A DNA stretch of 64,000 bases, from assembly GCF_022170785.1 (NCBI RefSeq), contig NZ_CP081870.1, positions 1,972,001 to 2,036,000 of the forward strand. Reading direction: 5' to 3'. The position numbers and the translations under genes are program-made. The stretch comes from Rossellomorea marisflavi. Lineage in GTDB: Bacteria > Bacillota > Bacilli > Bacillales > Bacillaceae_B. The stretch's first letter is position 1; every line of letters begins with the position of its first letter. Of this stretch, positions 48,853-58,483 are shown piece after piece. The notes below the pieces were generated by a model. The model was given only the letters and a program-made list of their open reading frames with translations, was not told the DNA's origin and did not search any database.

Positions 48853-50187
48853 ATGGCAAAGTATACTCGTGAAGATGTACTAAGATTGGCGAATGAAGAA
48901 GGTGTAAAATTCATCCGTCTCCAGTTCACAGACATCCTGGGAACAATTAAAAACGTAGAAATCCCTTTCAGTCAGCTTGAAAAGGCGCTAGACAACAAAA
49001 TGATGTTCGATGGTTCTTCCATTGAAGGATTTGTACGTATCGAGGAATCGGATATGTATCTTTTCCCTGATCTTGATACGTGGTTGGTATTCCCTTGGAC
49101 AGCTGAAAAAGGGAAGGTTGCCCGTTTGATCTGTGACATCTATAACCCAGATGGGACTCCGTTTGAAGGAGATCCGCGTAATAACCTCAAACGTATTCTA
49201 AGCCAGATGGAAGAGCTTGGATTTACGGATTTCAACCTCGGGCCTGAACCGGAATTCTTCCTATTCAAGCTGGATGTGAATGGTGAACCTACTCTTGAAT
49301 TGAATGATAACGGAGGCTACTTCGATCTTGCACCTACGGATCTTGGAGAAAACTGCCGTCGTGATATTGCCCTTGAGCTTGAAGAAATGGGCTTTGAAAT
49401 CGAAGCTTCCCACCATGAGGTTGCTCCTGGTCAGCACGAGATCGATTTCAAATATGCCAATGCACTCAAGGCATGTGACGATATTCAAACATTCAAGCTG
49501 GTTGTTAAGACCATTGCCCGCAAACACGGTCTGCATGCTACCTTCATGCCAAAACCGTTGTTCGGAGTGAACGGTTCTGGAATGCACTGCAATATGTCAC
49601 TATTCAAAAGCGGAGTGAACTCATTCTTCGATGAAAAAGGCGATCTTCAATTGAGCGATACAGCGCGTCAATTCCTCGCCGGTATCATCAAGCATGCTAC
49701 GAGCTTCACGGCCATCACGAACCCTACGGTCAACTCTTATAAACGTCTTGTTCCTGGATATGAGGCACCATGTTACGTTGCGTGGTCAGCTCGCAACCGT
49801 AGCCCTCTAATTCGTATCCCAGCATCACGCGGACTCAGCACGCGCGTTGAAGTGCGAAGCGTCGATCCGGCTGCCAATCCATACCTTGCAATGAGTGTAC
49901 TGCTTGCCGCAGGTCTTGATGGAATCAAGAATAACCTGGAAGCGCCAAAGCCAATCGATCGTAACATCTACGTTATGGACAAAAAAGAGCGTGAAGAAGC
50001 AGGAATCACTGACCTTCCGGCAACCCTTCATGCTGCCCTTGAACAGTTGAAAACAAATGAAGTCATCGTCGGTGCTCTTGGTGAGCATATCTTCGAACAC
50101 TTTGTGGAAGCAAAGGAAATCGAGTGGGATATGTTCCGTACACAAGTTCATCCTTGGGAGCGCGAGCAATATATCCAAATGTATTAA
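48853..50187 (+). CDS. glnA: Glutamine synthetase type I-alpha
   Basis: 444 residues. [30 protein letters not shown], the ATP-binding [19 protein letters not shown] and [11 protein letters not shown] are canonical. It makes glutamine from glutamate and ammonia and, when feedback-inhibited, activates GlnR. The last nine codons lie within the 34-bp repeat that bounds an inserted island, so the 3' end was restored by the insertion without changing the protein frame. Confidence 0.98.
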
Positions 50188-50192
50188 TCTAT
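50159..50192 (+). repeat. Left attachment-type direct repeat (in glnA)
   Basis: 34 bases beginning AGCGCGAGCAATATATCC, covering the last glnA codons and the TAA. Identical to 54278-54311. Confidence 0.93.
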
Positions 50193-50193
50193 C

Positions 50194-50228
50194 AAACCCC
50201 TTGATACCACTGGTATTGAGGGGTTTTT
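50194..50228 (+). terminator. Terminator after glnA (island-borne)
   Basis: AAACCCCTTGATACC pairs with GGTATTGAGGGGTTT (one G-T pair), followed by T residues. It lies just inside the island and ends glnRA transcription. Confidence 0.88.
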
Positions 50229-50233
50229 AGTTT

Positions 50234-50285
50234 GTGGGTGAAAGTCGATTTTTTTTAACGATCCACAGAGCACCCACAAACACCC
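50234..50285. promoter_or_regulatory. Possible arm-type recombinase sites, left end
   Basis: GTGGGTG at 50234-50240 and CACCCAC at 50271-50277, with a further CACCC at 50281. The same heptamer occurs twice near the right end (54132, 54143). This layout is typical of integrase arm sites. No other feature explains it. Confidence 0.4.
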
Positions 50286-50498
50286 TGTTTGTCTGTAATG
50301 ATTAAAATAACTACCAAAATTCAGTAAAACTTAAAGATGTTGAACGATATTTCACCCTAAATTCTTATCCATATTCGTCCGAAAAAGGATTGCTTGTAAA
50401 TTATTCACTAATTGTAACGGATTGTTTAGAGAGTACCAGAATTCTGACCAGAAGAGTAAAAATAACATCCTTAATATTTGGATAGTAAATTCTTACAA

Positions 50499-50524
50499 AC
50501 AATTTTCATGAAGTCGCATAAAAT
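50499..50524 (+). promoter_or_regulatory. Sigma-K-like promoter before a possible small RNA
   Basis: AC at 50499-50500, 16 bases, CATAAAAT at 50517-50524. It lies upstream of two hairpins and a strong terminator with no gene between. Confidence 0.4.
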
Positions 50525-50530
50525 GTTTAA

Positions 50531-50627
50531 TGTAAGGATTGATTGGTCATCAATCCTTTTGCAAGTTTGCTAGGGATCGGCCAGATCTTTACTCTTTCTC
50601 TAATTATATTAGAGAAAGAGTTTTTTT
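50531..50627 (+). ncRNA. Candidate small RNA with intrinsic terminator
   Basis: About 97 bases: hairpin AAGGATTGAT/ATCAATCCTT (50534-50558), a short single-stranded stretch, then a perfect 14-bp terminator ACTCTTTCTCTAAT/ATTAGAGAAAGAGT with seven T (50591-50628). No open frame longer than 16 codons and no ribosome site. It could be a mother-cell regulatory RNA or the tail of a lost gene. The remaining gap (50228-50766) shows nothing else but AT-rich DNA. Confidence 0.35.
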
Positions 50628-50766
50628 CGTTCATTAACTATTATTTTGAATTTGTAAGTAGAAATTAAGACTATTCTATTAAGGTAATTGAGAGTAAATG
50701 GGGCAAGCGTACAAGCATAAAATATTTCACCACATATTCTATAGAAAAGAAAGGTGGTGAAATAAT

Positions 50767-51159
50767 ATGGATTGCTTCAGTAAACCTTTAGGAAAAGATG
50801 TTAAATGTCCTCAAAGGCCAAAAAGGGAATGTAAAGACGCTCATTTTGAGAACTGTGCTCCTATTTCTGGTAGTGGAAACAGGGACGTAAATGTAATTTT
50901 TGATGTTGACCCCAATAGTCTTCATGTAACGGCTGCGGGGACTATCGAAAATTTCAGTGATCAATCATTTAACGTTCGTTTTGAAAGAGAGAATAGTGCT
51001 CCAATAATTATTCTAGTAGCACCCCATAGTTCTATTACTTTTGTCTACGATAATCTAATTAGAATTACGACTACTGGTACTGCTCCTGAGAGAACCTATA
51101 ATGGTTCGTTAAAGATTCAATTGCACTATACCTTTGAAAGAGTTTGTAAAAAGTACTAA
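50767..51159 (+). CDS. Ena-like (DUF3992-type) spore appendage protein candidate
   Basis: 130 residues. The N-terminal 30 residues are Cys-rich (Cys3, 14, 22, 30), followed by a single beta-sandwich: VTAAGTIENFSDQSFNVRFE, APIIILVAPHSSITFVYDNL, IRITTTGTAPE, NGSLKIQLHYTF, and Cys127 at the end. The strand pattern and the closing [SG]xxxIxLxYT segment resemble DUF3992 endospore-appendage subunits, whose N-terminal cysteines cross-link stacked subunits. ATG has AAAGGTGGTGA upstream. CATATTCTA at 50733 could be a mother-cell -10, without a proper -35. The family call is by eye and should be tested. Confidence 0.6.
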   Translation: MDCFSKPLGKDVKCPQRPKRECKDAHFENCAPISGSGNRDVNVIFDVDPNSLHVTAAGTIENFSDQSFNVRFERENSAPIIILVAPHSSITFVYDNLIRITTTGTAPERTYNGSLKIQLHYTFERVCKKY

Positions 51160-51167
51160 TAAATTTG

Positions 51168-51193
51168 AGCCTCGAACTCTTTCGGGGCTTTTT
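51168..51193 (+). terminator. Terminator after the Ena-like gene
   Basis: AGCCTCGAA/TTCGGGGCT with one G-T pair and five T. Confidence 0.85.
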
Positions 51194-51351
51194 AATCTTG
51201 AATTTTTAATAGAAGGATTTCAGGAATAACAAAAGAGGGTTGGTAAGAAATAATAATTACATTATAATGTGATTGTTAACTAGGATATTGAAGTTAGTAT
51301 AGACTATAAAATGACATAAATGATTTCATTTGCTTAAATAGGTGAGTTAAG

Positions 51352-51540
51352 ATGCAATCATATTCAAAGGACTCGAAGGTCAAAGGACATTACAATTAGG
51401 GAATTAAGTGTAATGACAGGTATATCTCTCAATTACCTATCACAAATTGAAAATGGAAAAAAGAATCCCTCATTAAAGAAATTGACTATAATTTTTTTCA
51501 CTTACAAATTGGTTGGGAAGACTTGTTTGAGCGTATTTGA
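51352..51540 (+). pseudogene. Broken XRE/SinR-like HTH regulator
   Basis: Conceptual translation gives RRSKDITIRELSVMTGIS, then LNYLSQIENGKKNPSLKKLT, a clear Cro/CI-type helix-turn-helix, and in another frame LQIGWEDLFERI, the usual family ending. At least two frameshifts are needed: one between the ATG at 51352 and the HTH, one at the T-run near 51491. It was probably the regulator of the original mobile element. Confidence 0.75.
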
Positions 51541-51560
51541 TGAAATTTTAAATGTAAATA

Positions 51561-51598
51561 AAAGAGAATGCAATTAATTAGTTTGCATTCTCTTTCTT
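51561..51598. terminator. Bidirectional terminator
   Basis: A perfect 13-bp stem AAAGAGAATGCAA/TTGCATTCTCTTT between the HTH remnant and the end of the large minus-strand gene. Confidence 0.85.
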
Positions 51599-51600
51599 AT

Positions 51601-54003
51601 TTAAATTAAGTCGCAGTTTGTAATAAATGAGGTTGGACTGCCTTGCGATACAAACGGAACAAGGGTTTGGAAAGTAGTGGTTGTATTATCGGTAGCGAGG
51701 ATTTCCCAAGTAATCTGACCAGTTACTGTATTCAGAGTAGCGGTCACTTGCGCTTCGAATGTTCGTGAAGGACCATTATTTATCCGCCCGTTAATAACCC
51801 CCTCAACAGTAGCGATCGTTAACCCGGCCCCACAAGTAATTGAGGTGCGTCGTCCCTGTGTAAACTGAAAGTTCTCTCCGTTACCCGCGTTAAAGACGAA
51901 GTTGAAATTATCGACTGCTGGATTGCATATACCCTGTATTCCTTCTCCACACTCAACGACTGTAATGTTGAGTGTGCCGGTGTAATCGGTTGTGTTGCCA
52001 AATTGGGTAACACGGATTTGCGCACCCGGTTGAGCCCCGCCTTGTGTGTTTAACCTGAAACGACATGGACAATCTTCCGGAGGAAATGGACAATCAACCG
52101 ATACGTTTACAGGACCGGCAGTAACGTCTTGCCCACCGACTGTTGCAGAGGCTGTAATTGTCACCGTCTCCACAGCACCAACTGCAGGTTGAACGGTGGC
52201 GGTGTAAGACCCGTCAGCCTGAGTGATGGCTGGATTAGGATTAACAAAGACATTGTTGCCAGGGGAAGCGACCGTGAAGATTACCGGTATGCCAGCCACT
52301 GGAGAACCGTCACATAATAAAGTGCCGTTTATAGGAGCTCCGTCGCACCCCACTACGATACCTGGAGGAACTAGGGTTAAGGAAGGATTCGCACATTCAA
52401 GGCAACTGGCGCGGACGTAAGCTGTCGTGGAAATCGGGATATTATTGACTTCAGCACTGGCAGTGATCGGTACTCCCTCCTGCACATCTGTGCCAAATGG
52501 AACCGTAGCTAGACTTTGGAATTCTCCGTTTTGATCGGTTAAGACTTGAGATGGTGTAAACTCGACCAAGGAACTTGAAAGCGTTACTTCAACATTTGGA
52601 ACCGGTGTGCCTTCACATAACACTCGACCAGTGATTGGCTTGCTGCAACTGATTGGAGATGGGTTATCGAGCTGAATGATTGGATTCACGCATTCACAAT
52701 CGACTAGGACATTTCTTGTAGGGGATGAAGTCGGAATGCCACCTACTATTGTAGAGGCTTGGATGGTAATAAGCTCGCTAGCTCCGACACTTGGAAGGAT
52801 TGTAGCTGTATATGTTCCGTCAGCCCCGGTTATGACCGGATTTGGTGATATGATAACTTCGGCTTCAGGTGGGAAAATGGTGAATGAAATCGGTGCGCCT
52901 GAAATCGGCTGACCATCACAAGTAAGTTGGCCGGTGATTTGATCCCCCTCACATCCTACTGTCTCTGCCGGTACGTTTAACGTAAGAATTGGATTGGTGC
53001 AATTTTCACACCCAGCAATGACCGTGCCAGTAGCAGATACAGGAATACCAAAAGGGGTTGCAGTTGCCGTATACGAAACGGTTTGATTTGGGGTTCCTGG
53101 TGCAACCGTGACAACACTTGAAAATTCACCGTTTTGATTTGTCACAGAGGTCGGAGTCGTGAAGTTTAAGATAGGATTTCCGGAAAAAGTGACGGGTACA
53201 TTCGGTATTGGAGTGCCGTTGCATGTTAAGCGACCTGAAAGGGTACCATTACAGCTGATTTGCATAACCTCATCCAAATCAATGGTCGGATTATCACATG
53301 GTGGGCAGATGACTCGAATGGATTGGGGAGTGGTACTGACGACTATGCCACCTACAGTTGTTGTGGCTGTTAATATAATGGTTTCATCTACTCCCCTAAA
53401 TGGAAGGAGGGTGGCTGTATATTCCCCGTTAACTCCAGTGGTAGCTGGATTGGGATTGACAACGACCCTTCCCGAAGAGCTCTGAACAGTGAAGCTAATA
53501 GCTGCACTTGGTATAGATTGGCCATCACATGTCAATCTTCCACTGATTTGAGCTCCTTGACACGTAACTACTTCAGTAATGGCGTTAATCGTTAACGTAG
53601 GGTTTTGACATACTATACACCCGACCCTGGTGGTGATACTTGTCGTATCGGTTTGTCCATTTATTTCAGTGGAAGCCGTGATGATGACATTTGGAGTAAT
53701 GGGAGTACCTCTCGGAATGGTAACGGTTGTGGTGAATTGACCAAAACGATTAGTAACAGGTCGTGGATTAGCAAAAATCAACCCTGGAAAAGACGATGAC
53801 AACTCTACAATTTGTAAACTCAGAGGTCGCATATCACATAACACCCGTCCAGTAATGGTCCCAGTGCAGCTAATGGCTACGATTTGATCCAACTGAATCA
53901 TGGGGTTTATACAATCCGCAGGAAAAATGTCAGGACAGCCTTTTGGAGCTAACCTTTGAATACATAAATTTTCAACGTTATCTTTTTTTTCTTCATTAAA
54001 CAA
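51601..54003 (-). CDS. Large spore-surface-type protein with six Cys-linked Ig-like domains
   Basis: 800 residues from TTG 54003, chosen because AGAGGAG lies 8 bases upstream; TTG 54033 is less well placed. No signal peptide. Six Ig-like (Big-type) domains of about 100 residues alternate as A-B-A-B-A-B. Most linkers are CxxC-x-NP (CIVCQNP, CPPCDNP, CENCTNP, CLECANP), and each domain has a second Cys in a G[RQT]L[TL]C-[DN]G type strand. The C-terminal 140 residues (CPCRFRLNTQGG ... RRTSITCGAGLT) form a separate domain. A sigma-K-like promoter lies just upstream. Likely a mother-cell protein cross-linked by disulfides into a spore filament or outer layer; this is inference. Confidence 0.8.
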   Translation of the reverse strand: MFNEEKKDNVENLCIQRLAPKGCPDIFPADCINPMIQLDQIVAISCTGTITGRVLCDMRPLSLQIVELSSSFPGLIFANPRPVTNRFGQFTTTVTIPRGTPITPNVIITASTEINGQTDTTSITTRVGCIVCQNPTLTINAITEVVTCQGAQISGRLTCDGQSIPSAAISFTVQSSSGRVVVNPNPATTGVNGEYTATLLPFRGVDETIILTATTTVGGIVVSTTPQSIRVICPPCDNPTIDLDEVMQISCNGTLSGRLTCNGTPIPNVPVTFSGNPILNFTTPTSVTNQNGEFSSVVTVAPGTPNQTVSYTATATPFGIPVSATGTVIAGCENCTNPILTLNVPAETVGCEGDQITGQLTCDGQPISGAPISFTIFPPEAEVIISPNPVITGADGTYTATILPSVGASELITIQASTIVGGIPTSSPTRNVLVDCECVNPIIQLDNPSPISCSKPITGRVLCEGTPVPNVEVTLSSSLVEFTPSQVLTDQNGEFQSLATVPFGTDVQEGVPITASAEVNNIPISTTAYVRASCLECANPSLTLVPPGIVVGCDGAPINGTLLCDGSPVAGIPVIFTVASPGNNVFVNPNPAITQADGSYTATVQPAVGAVETVTITASATVGGQDVTAGPVNVSVDCPFPPEDCPCRFRLNTQGGAQPGAQIRVTQFGNTTDYTGTLNITVVECGEGIQGICNPAVDNFNFVFNAGNGENFQFTQGRRTSITCGAGLTIATVEGVINGRINNGPSRTFEAQVTATLNTVTGQITWEILATDNTTTTFQTLVPFVSQGSPTSFITNCDLI

Positions 54004-54045
54004 TTGCGTTTCTCCTCTCAGTAAATAAGTCAAATCTTCACCATC

Positions 54046-54072
54046 AACATATGAAGATAGAGAAACGTAGGT
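54046..54072 (-). promoter_or_regulatory. Sigma-K-like promoter (minus strand)
   Basis: On the minus strand AC, 17 bases, CATATGTT. It lies about 43 bases before the TTG at 54003, with the AGAGGAG site in between. Confidence 0.5.
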
Positions 54073-54110
54073 ACGCCCTTTTTATATGTTCCAATGCTAT
54101 AAGAAAAAAA

Positions 54111-54149
54111 GGGTGGAATTACGGGTGAATCCACCCACAAAACACCCAC
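54111..54149. promoter_or_regulatory. Possible arm-type recombinase sites, right end
   Basis: CACCCAC at 54132-54138 and 54143-54149, plus inverted GGGTG at 54111 and 54123. Counterpart of the left-end heptamers. Between here and the right repeat (54150-54277) no gene is visible. Confidence 0.4.
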
Positions 54150-54277
54150 ACTTTTAATAGAAGTTACTATATAATATCGAAAGATTTTTTTTGAAGCCCC
54201 ATTATATCAACAATTAATCAAAGTTATTATATGGAATTCTCCCAGGAAATCTAATCCGTACTCAAGTAACCCTTGGA

Positions 54278-54311
54278 AGCGCGAGCAATATATCCAAATG
54301 TATTAATCTAT
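54278..54311 (+). repeat. Right attachment-type direct repeat
   Basis: Identical 34 bases to 50159-50192, here not connected to an upstream glnA. It marks the right border of the island. Confidence 0.93.
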
Positions 54312-54313
54312 TG

Positions 54314-54356
54314 AAAAATCCCCCAGAAGGATCTCATCCTTCTGGGGGATTTTTGC
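54314..54356. terminator. Terminator, probably the original glnA terminator
   Basis: A perfect 19-bp stem (54314-54332 with 54336-54354) containing ATCCCCCAGAAGG/CCTTCTGGGGGAT and a 3-base loop. It directly follows the right repeat, where the chromosomal glnA downstream region would be. Confidence 0.88.
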
Positions 54357-54544: not shown

Positions 54545-56002
54545 TTAAGCTGTTAAAGTCGTTTTTTGGTCTATCAACAGTAAGGAGTCCTGAATCTTTT
54601 TACTTGATGAGCTAAGTCCGATCGTTTCTACTTCACACCCCTGGTCTTTGAACTTCGTCAAAACTTTGGCAAGGGCTGCCACAGCGGACTCATCCCAGAT
54701 CTGTGCACCGGTAAAATCGATTTTGACATGTTGTACCTCATCAGACAATTGGAATGCACCCACAAGCGTATCCACGGATGCAAAGAACAATTGACCCTCC
54801 ACTTTAAAATGACGATTCACACCCTCCACTTTTTCCGTCACCTTCAGCTTGGATATCTTGGCCACAAAGAACATGGCGCTGAGCAATACCCCTGCAATGA
54901 CCCCTTTTGAGAGGTCGTGAGTGGCAACCACGATGGCGACGGTGATGAGCATCACTGCGGCATCTGCTTTAGGGGCTTTCCTGATGTAACGGAATGATGA
55001 CCAGTCGAACGTACCGATAGAGACCATGATCATGATTCCGGCGAGAACCGCCATGGGGATCTTCACGACGAAATCCCCAAGTACGATGATTAGGAACATC
55101 AGGAAAGAGCCTGCAACAAAGGTGGATAATCGCCCCCGTCCACCTGATTTTACATTGATCACCGACTGACCGATCATCGCGCATCCGGCCATCCCACCGA
55201 AGAATCCATTGATAATATTGGCGATTCCCTGACCCCTTGCTTCCTGATTTTTATTGCTGTCCGTATCCGTCATGTCATCTACGATGGAAGCCGTCATAAG
55301 GGATTCGAGTAATCCTACAATCGCGAGGGCGAGTGAGTAGGGTAAAATGATACTCAATGTCTCAAGTGAGAACGGGATATCGGGAAGGAAGAACGATGGC
55401 AAGGTCTGACGTATCGTCCCGAGATCTCCCACGGTCCTCAAGTCTGCTTTTGAAATCAAGGCAATGGCAGTAAGCACCACAATAGCCACTAGGGGTGAGG
55501 GGATGGATTTTACGAATCGGGGGAGCACATACACAACCACCAATGTCACCGCCACAAATACATAGGTCATCCCATTAATGTTGAAAAAGTGAGGCACTTG
55601 AGCTGAAAAAATCAGAATGGCCAAAGCATTCACGAATCCGATCATCACAGCGCGTGGGATGAATTTCATGAGCCTTGCGATTTTACATACCCCGAACAGG
55701 AGTTGGATGACTCCTGTCAGGATAGTGGCTGCCAACAGATAGTTTAACCCATAATCTTTGACAAGAGGGACCATGACAAGGGCCATGGCACCGGTAGCAG
55801 CAGAAATCATGGCAGGTCTTCCGCCGACAAAGGAAATGATGACGGCAATACAAAAAGAAGCGTATAGCCCGACCATTGGATCGACACCGGCTATGATGGA
55901 AAAGGCAATGGCCTCAGGAATGAGCGCAAGGGCTACGACGATTCCCGAAAGGATGTCTCCCCTGACATTCGAAAACCATTGTTGTTTTATGGTATTCTTC
56001 AT
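54545..56002 (-). CDS. SulP family anion transporter with STAS domain
   Basis: 485 residues. [21 protein letters not shown] and VGLYASF are the SulP signature, about 12 membrane segments follow, and [20 protein letters not shown] is conserved. A short cytoplasmic STAS domain (about 390-485) has [19 protein letters not shown]. It may carry sulfate, bicarbonate or another anion. ATG follows AGAGGTGA. Confidence 0.92.
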
Positions 56003-56124
56003 ATTGTCACCTCTAAAAAATCATAAATTTTAATTCAATAGAAAACAGTTTATCACCGTTTTTCCCAAAAGTGAACCTTTTCGGGAAAAACAATTCCAAA
56101 CAGGAGAGGGGGAAGGAGATAGGT

Positions 56125-56667
56125 ATGATCATCGGATACTACAGACCGAGCAATGATGATCCTGAAGGACGGATTCAGGAGAAAAAACTGCTGGGAAAAA
56201 AATGTACGGTTCTATACAAGGAGGAACATTCTTCACCGAAGAGGAGAGTGAACTTGGAAGCACTGCTTGCAGAAGCAGGGCAGGGGGATACGGTCGTCGT
56301 GGCTTCTTTAATCGACTTTGCTGATTCCACCCGGCAGCTATTGGAACTGTTGAACGAGTTAGAAACGAAAGGGACACAGTTCATTTCCATATCTGAAGGG
56401 CTGTCGACCAGTCCTGGGAAGACGTACCGTTTTCAGGAGGTATTGGAGCATCTTATAAGCTTTCAAAGTGATGTGATCAGTGAAAGGACAAAAAAGGGCA
56501 TAGGAGAAGCGAAAGAAAAGGGAGTCAGTACGGGGCGACCGCGAAAGCCTGATGAAAACGTAAAAAAGGCCATAGCCATGTATGAATCAAAAACCTACAG
56601 CCTGGCAGAAATAAAAGAAAAAACGGGCATCAGTAAGTCCACTTTATACCGCTATCTTGAAAGATAG
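56125..56667 (+). CDS. Serine-recombinase-like protein with altered active site
   Basis: 180 residues. MIIGYYRPSNDDPEGRIQEK matches the resolvase N-terminus with its Ser, and TKKGIGEAKEKGVSTGRPRKP plus a C-terminal helix-turn-helix (SLAEIKEKTGISKSTLYRYL) complete a resolvase layout. The usual DRLGRS active-site arginines are replaced (LIDFADSTRQLL), so strand exchange is doubtful. ATG 56125 follows AAGGAGA; an upstream in-frame start at 56071 has no ribosome site. Possibly a DNA-binding protein derived from a resolvase. Divergent from the SulP gene and convergent with lexA. Confidence 0.8.
   Translation: MIIGYYRPSNDDPEGRIQEKKLLGKKCTVLYKEEHSSPKRRVNLEALLAEAGQGDTVVVASLIDFADSTRQLLELLNELETKGTQFISISEGLSTSPGKTYRFQEVLEHLISFQSDVISERTKKGIGEAKEKGVSTGRPRKPDENVKKAIAMYESKTYSLAEIKEKTGISKSTLYRYLER

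Positions 56668-57497: not shown

Positions 57498-58483
<986 letters not shown>

Follow-up and report, generated by a model that had tools for sequence, protein, structure and literature searches.

An integrase-less island at the duplicated 3' end of glnA in Rossellomorea marisflavi, a probable remnant of a temperate phage or similar element

Introduction

A cis-mobilizable element (CIME), in the sections of PMC5704250 drawn on here, which cite Pavlovic et al. 2004, is a decayed ICE or IME that has both att sites and no integration gene. A cryptic or 'grounded' prophage, in the part of PMC6379469 that bears on the subject, is a remnant that has lost its recombinase and that can hold genes useful to the host.

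The island described here lies downstream of glnA in a 64,000-nucleotide stretch of the R. marisflavi chromosome (the window). It resembles a CIME, as characterised in the excerpted part of PMC5704250, in having both att sites without an integration gene, at a site that is used by complete elements. It departs from that description in that a CIME derives from an ICE or IME, whereas its integrase-bearing relatives at glnA, so far as they were read, comprise phages and small elements. Both attL and attR are retained, and no integrase was found among the open reading frames or by profile, its former presence being presumed. The island is thus CIME-like as regards its att sites, while a conjugation origin, descent from an ICE or IME and mobilization in cis would be hypothetical. 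With the grounded prophages of PMC6379469 (again going by part of that text) it shares the loss, here presumed, of a recombinase and the possible carriage of useful genes, but in the island no recognisable phage gene is left.

Closer counterparts are the prophages at glnA in Heyndrickxia ginsengihumi (G075), H. acidiproducens (G327) and Jeotgalibacillus salarius (G192) and the phage SPbetaL5, in all of which, as in the island, the att core lies in about the last 17 codons of glnA. The three prophages also have a terminator in the left att and a similar repeat layout, and the motif CACCCAC is common to the island and the prophage of G075. Unlike the island, they are 37-40 kb long and carry an integrase. 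SPbetaL5 differs similarly (127 kb, with integrase) and is known here as a phage record, its glnA-tail attP being read from its letters. Set against these elements, the island has a duplicated tail, an empty-site allele and repeats of arm type inside both ends, although its left end taken alone fails a three-copy test; the integrase that active members carry next to attL, convergent with glnA, was found neither among the open reading frames nor by profile. For this reason the island is called a relic rather than an active member.

The duplicated glnA end

A perfect 34-bp direct repeat (50159-50192 and 54278-54311) brackets a 4.1-kb insert at the 3' end of glnA (Table 1). Extended leftwards to 50152 and 54271, it holds 40 identities in 41 positions (50152-50192 versus 54271-54311), and looser homology reaches back to TCCGTAC (50135 and 54255), about 17 codons ahead of the glnA stop; over this length 53 of 58 aligned columns agree. 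The right copy differs from the left by four substitutions and a 1-bp deletion, all outside the 34-bp part. Alignment of both tail copies found no further glnA likeness upstream of 54255; the right copy therefore does not terminate a tandem pseudogene of glnA, a case that the sequence-only reading of this DNA had named as fatal to its proposal of an island.

Each tail copy is followed by a stable hairpin (-21.9 kcal/mol on the left, -32.0 on the right), and for either hairpin 0 of 200 shuffles folded as well. GC content is 40.5% for 50193-54270 against 46.6% for the whole window. The letters, base composition and folding agree with the sequence-only reading, which had described a perfect 34-bp repeat of the glnA terminus around AT-rich DNA, with a terminator after each copy, one imported and one native; the empty alleles described below bear out the latter distinction. 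It is a distinction between the terminators; either of the two copies may be the native glnA tail.

Table 1. Features of the glnA 3' region and the island (window positions)
Feature	Positions	Strand	Basis or remarks
glnA, glutamine synthetase, 444 aa, intact	48853..50187	+	protein 100% identical to that of G034; 3' end is attB or rebuilt end
Left glnA-tail copy (attL core)	50135..50192	+	50159-50192 is the perfect 34-bp part
Island-borne terminator hairpin	50194..50228	+	folding; missing from empty alleles; resembles terminator behind left tail of G075 prophage
Left repeat cluster, putative arm type	50234..50285	+	GTGGGTG 50234-50240, CACCCAC 50271-50277, CACCC 50281-50285
130-aa protein, endospore-appendage (Ena) family	50767..51159	+	PF13157, 27.4 bits against cut-off of 22
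54-aa helix-turn-helix fragment	51413..51577	+	HTH_3 profile positions 18-43 of 55
810-aa Ig-like (Big_1) repeat protein	51601..54033	-	domain profile; relatives
Right repeats, putative arm type	54132..54149	+	CACCCAC 54132-54138 and 54143-54149
Right glnA-tail copy (attR core)	54255..54311	+	54278-54311 is the perfect 34-bp part
Native glnA terminator, displaced by insertion	54314..54354	+	inverted repeat; folding; like sequence 3' of glnA in G027 and G034

The empty site in congeners

The surroundings of glnA were compared in 35 congeners, some of the stretches being short where a contig ended; the genomes read include only one of the island's own species. A lexA match lies at most 0.3 kb from the glnA end in 24 of the 35 and is absent from the stretch read in six. 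Two congeners, G027 and G034, lack the island and have glnA followed by TAATCTAT or TAATCTAC, a terminator like the right-hand one of the window, and then sulP. When the window flanks are joined at the repeat, they align with G034 in a single piece (3,129 columns, 94.2% identity, 12 gap openings) and with G027 in two, one of 1,419 columns at 92.9% that spans the junction and one of 1,536 at 85.9%. The two G027 pieces are separated by about 160 bases that do not align and that lie past the terminator. The comparison of glnA-lexA intervals proposed in the sequence-only reading had looked for just such a single-copy site, and together with the repeat these alleles uphold its claim of a precise insertion at the 3' end of glnA.

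Because the empty alleles keep a terminator of the right-hand type, the left one came with the island. The segment running from the left terminator up to the right copy may have been gained in this lineage or lost in G027 and G034; gain is favoured, since 24 congeners have glnA next to lexA.

Of the 35 congeners one, G004, shows a second glnA tail, defined by at least 31 matches in 45 positions. This genome has an island of its own, with the second tail 4.2 kb downstream and different open reading frames; the weak tblastn matches to integrase within it (E 0.07) found no support from the integrase profile. The 13-15 kb of other genes that separate glnA from lexA in G002 and G019 include no second glnA tail, and these inserts were not counted as islands.

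The glnA tail as the attachment site of an integrase clade

A search for the glnA-end pattern over 397 genomes of the order gave matches in 72, eight of which (the present genome, G000, with G004, G074, G075, G192, G327, G345 and G383) have at least two copies. In G074, G075, G192, G327 and G383 a phage-type tyrosine integrase lies 67-116 bp past the stop of the glnA tail and points toward it; it is 379-395 aa long, except in G074, where the first start codon gives 422. G345 has a 377-aa integrase 112 bp past the tail, in a 9.2-kb element whose left att is away from glnA itself. These six integrases share 44-67% identity with one another. The 37-kb prophage on contig 36 of G327 has an att copy at either end, and the intervals between the copies in G075 (about 40 kb) and G192 (about 39 kb), read by eye from the starts of their open reading frames, hold largely phage-like genes. 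DNA between duplicated glnA ends, for which the sequence-only reading had suggested a search, is thus found in other genomes as prophages, as relics and as the island of G004.

SPbetaL5 (OQ921345; L095), an isolated phage of the SPbeta group, has a tyrosine integrase with 52.8% identity to that of G327; directly behind the integrase the letters for 19 residues and a stop form a glnA-tail attP. SPbeta itself uses a serine recombinase; the SPbetaL5 record yielded no Resolvase-family domain. Kohm et al. have reportedly dealt with SPbeta integration loci.

A profile (A1) built from the six integrases and that of SPbetaL5 matches 146 of the 397 genomes at E<=1e-60, with at most four candidates scored per genome, and reaches at least 400 bits in 39 of them (41 entries). 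On the same terms, neither G000 nor G004 has a match at E<=1e-60. A scan of named genomes confirmed 128 integrase relatives, and among the best 80 of these a GlnA C-terminal tail lies beside the integrase in 75. The tail ends 70-192 bp from the integrase match in 73 of the 75 and at 1.5-1.6 kb in the other two (L114 and L163). By letters, it belongs to a full glnA end in 66 and stands as a tail only in nine, three of which (L096, L112 and L116) are truncated by the end of the locus. No GlnA tail was seen in five of the best 80 (L119, L136, L150, L154 and L169), L154 ending 0.2 kb past its integrase. Genera with such loci include Bacillus, Paenibacillus, Brevibacillus, Halobacillus, Domibacillus and Peribacillus. 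Among 80 loci kept from a viral collection, 15 show a glnA tail, and 65 stop less than 150 nt past the integrase match, so that their att is cut off.

The sequence-only reading had called glnA an unusual integration target. This view is not supported, given the figures of 39 genomes in 397 at 400 bits or more and of 75 tails among the best 80 loci. No description of a glnA attachment site was met in the open-licence literature searched, an earlier description being possible; the wide use of glnA as attB may be unreported. The island is in itself unremarkable, and of greater interest is how widespread this attB is. From a single repeat comes a rule that can be checked across the Bacilli, namely that phages recurrently use the end of a gene of central nitrogen metabolism as a docking site, whose core, terminator and repeats are legible from sequence. 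The rule helps to delimit prophages, to predict sites of lysogeny and to find relic islands along with their cargo.

Two loci merit separate mention. In L169 (Priestia abyssalis) the integrase is 68% identical to the query and the adjoining gene 57% identical to the GlnA of the window, possibly reflecting a shift of target to a GlnA paralogue. Domibacillus sp. PGB-M46 (L069 and L162) carries a 9.2-kb element that encodes an integrase of glnA type and contains long open reading frames of predicted surface type; as the two glnA tails around it are away from glnA itself, tandem integration behind another element is suggested.

Repeats inside the ends

At many integrase loci, the terminator is followed by three copies of a short motif, of which one is inverted and two are direct, in the form GTGGGTG ... 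CACCCAC, CACCCAC or, elsewhere, with GCCCGA, TGACCA or TGCCCA as the motif. In a one-sided test, which asked for a 6-mer with at least three G+C in at least three copies within the 140 nt that follow the tail, 63 of 75 integrase loci passed; in 200 shuffles the mean was 1.95 of 75 and the highest count 8. Nine of 26 island-free congeners passed as well, and the left end of the window does not; as the one-sided test is not specific, reliance is placed on a test of both ends. The best 7-mer shared by the two ends in the window, CACCCAC, was equalled in 0 of 500 shuffles, as were the best motifs of G075, G192, G327, G127 and G140, while that of G004 was equalled in one of 500. No signal was obtained in G345, G328, G365, G093 or G408. 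The elements of G075 and G127 each have three copies of CACCCAC at either end. In further counts the patterns were chosen after the sites had been seen, and the zero chance counts obtained with them are descriptive. Going by their layout, the repeats may be arm-type sites of the integrase.

A relic series at glnA

Intervals between glnA tails range from prophages of about 40 kb down to a stub of 0.26 kb. The following small, worn-down pairs downstream of glnA were chosen among the matches listed and are examples, not a census. G140 has a 19-kb tail pair with an integrase match in pieces, and G127 a 9.4-kb pair with about half an integrase. Remnants of 67 and 35 integrase residues lie in the 2.6-kb pair of G408 and the 1.9-kb pair of G365, respectively. 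The 4.8-kb pair of G328, where the second tail has diverged, shows no clear integrase and the 2.8-kb pair of G093 none. In G351 (L258) just 259 bp separate the tails, with three CACCCAT repeats and no integrase; this interval is possibly no more than an att stub. In G288, the stretch read contains half an integrase and a single tail. The island of the window fits into this series.

Contents of the island

The genes that the sequence-only reading had taken for surface-protein genes are surface-type cargo, to judge from PF13157 and the Big_1 repeats. The Ena-like protein has relatives in three of 36 congeneric genomes, this one included, and in four protein clusters of a large search (six candidates scored); against solved structures no relative was found at E<=0.1. 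The 810-aa protein, which is probably surface-associated, has relatives of any length in 23 of the 36, with a second one in this genome, and its named relatives are mostly from Rossellomorea, P0006 being from R. vietnamensis. By their coordinates, neither the five near-full-length congeneric relatives of the 810-aa protein (G032, G010, G026, G022 and G031) nor the two of the Ena-like protein (G005 and G026) lie at glnA. The cargo might act on the spore or cell surface, and the helix-turn-helix fragment is probably a decayed regulator.

As the sequence-only reading had also held, the island contains no recombinase, whether sought among its open reading frames or by an integrase-profile search of six frames. 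Searches for an integrase remnant gave nothing significant by tblastn, and the best profile segment in the window (0.2 bits, i-E 1.3) was treated as chance. The cargo proteins have no match in PHROG, and no clear phage gene was found in the island. Elsewhere in the genome there are four genes with a phage-integrase domain, none of them near glnA, and no integrase of glnA type at E<=1e-60 among the four of 13 first-look candidates that were scored.

Origin of the island

The most probable explanation, to which we would give a chance of about four in five, is that the island is the decayed remnant of a temperate phage or similar element that integrated into the 3' end of glnA by means of a tyrosine integrase of the glnA-tail clade. 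It looks like an integrase-less cryptic-prophage or CIME-like remnant with an Ena-like gene and an Ig-repeat gene. The attP of such an element would carry about the last 17 codons of glnA and a terminator. Recombination of this attP into the 3' end of glnA by the integrase would rebuild an intact gene, while at the far end a second tail would remain, together with the native terminator. The integrase and phage genes would then have been lost, with the two surface-type cargo genes and the regulator fragment remaining. On its own, the island would be immobile; it could presumably move only if a phage of glnA type supplied an integrase or integrated in tandem alongside it. What counts against decay from such an element is that no significant integrase remnant and no clear phage gene were found in the island, that the left end fails the one-sided test, unspecific as this test is, and that in G345, G328, G365, G093 and G408 the test of both ends failed.

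The sequence-only reading had left open whether the element lost its own enzyme or depends on another. These are not fully separable, but the repeats just inside either end of the island, together with the graded relics in other genomes, favour loss. A cargo cassette lacking an integrase from the outset, and inserted by that of a glnA phage acting in trans, would account for the retention of both att regions with no detectable trace of an integrase, and in G004 the same site holds an independent island that also lacks an integrase. We nonetheless consider such a cassette unlikely: the relic series shows integrases shrinking in place, so that loss alone suffices, the island contains a regulator fragment, and no co-resident glnA-type integrase was found among the four of 13 candidates scored. 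Also rather unlikely is the wider proposition that the 3' end of glnA is an order-wide, undescribed attB of a dedicated clade of phage tyrosine integrases, at which integrase-less islands, among them this one with its spore- and surface-protein cargo, are also cassettes moved by helper phages in trans or in tandem.

The island could in principle have arrived already decayed, by homologous recombination of glnA and the downstream flanks from a relative. Congeners share glnA and the right flank, so that exchange is possible, and relatives of the cargo exist at 83-84% identity (P0029 in the Ena-like search, P0002 in that for the 810-aa protein). This route is nevertheless highly improbable, as no donor locus was found and an original site-specific insertion would still be required. 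Barely credible is an origin without mobility, whether from a tandem pseudogene of glnA or by chance duplication of its 3' end. The right copy is just 57 bp and imperfect, but phages in other genera are flanked by duplicates of this same part of glnA with a similar left edge, there are repeats at both ends and empty alleles, and alignment gave no longer stretch of glnA upstream of 54255.

Neighbouring genes

Between glnA with its island and lexA lie sulP and a 198-aa small resolvase-like gene (54545-56667 together), at variance with the text of the sequence-only reading. Among the congeneric stretches read, this pair stands between glnA and lexA only in the present genome, G027 and G034, and is probably an older insertion in the same interval. 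The resolvase-like gene (56071-56667) was rejected as the island's enzyme, since it is present with sulP in both empty-site congeners. A serine recombinase gene at 57833-58483 was likewise rejected; it scores as a member of the YneB family, and the yneB-like gene occurs in all 29 congeners that have a lexA match. In a further congener, G035 (L065), glnA is matched in two overlapping pieces, residues 1-266 and 260-444, owing to a frameshift or an assembly error.
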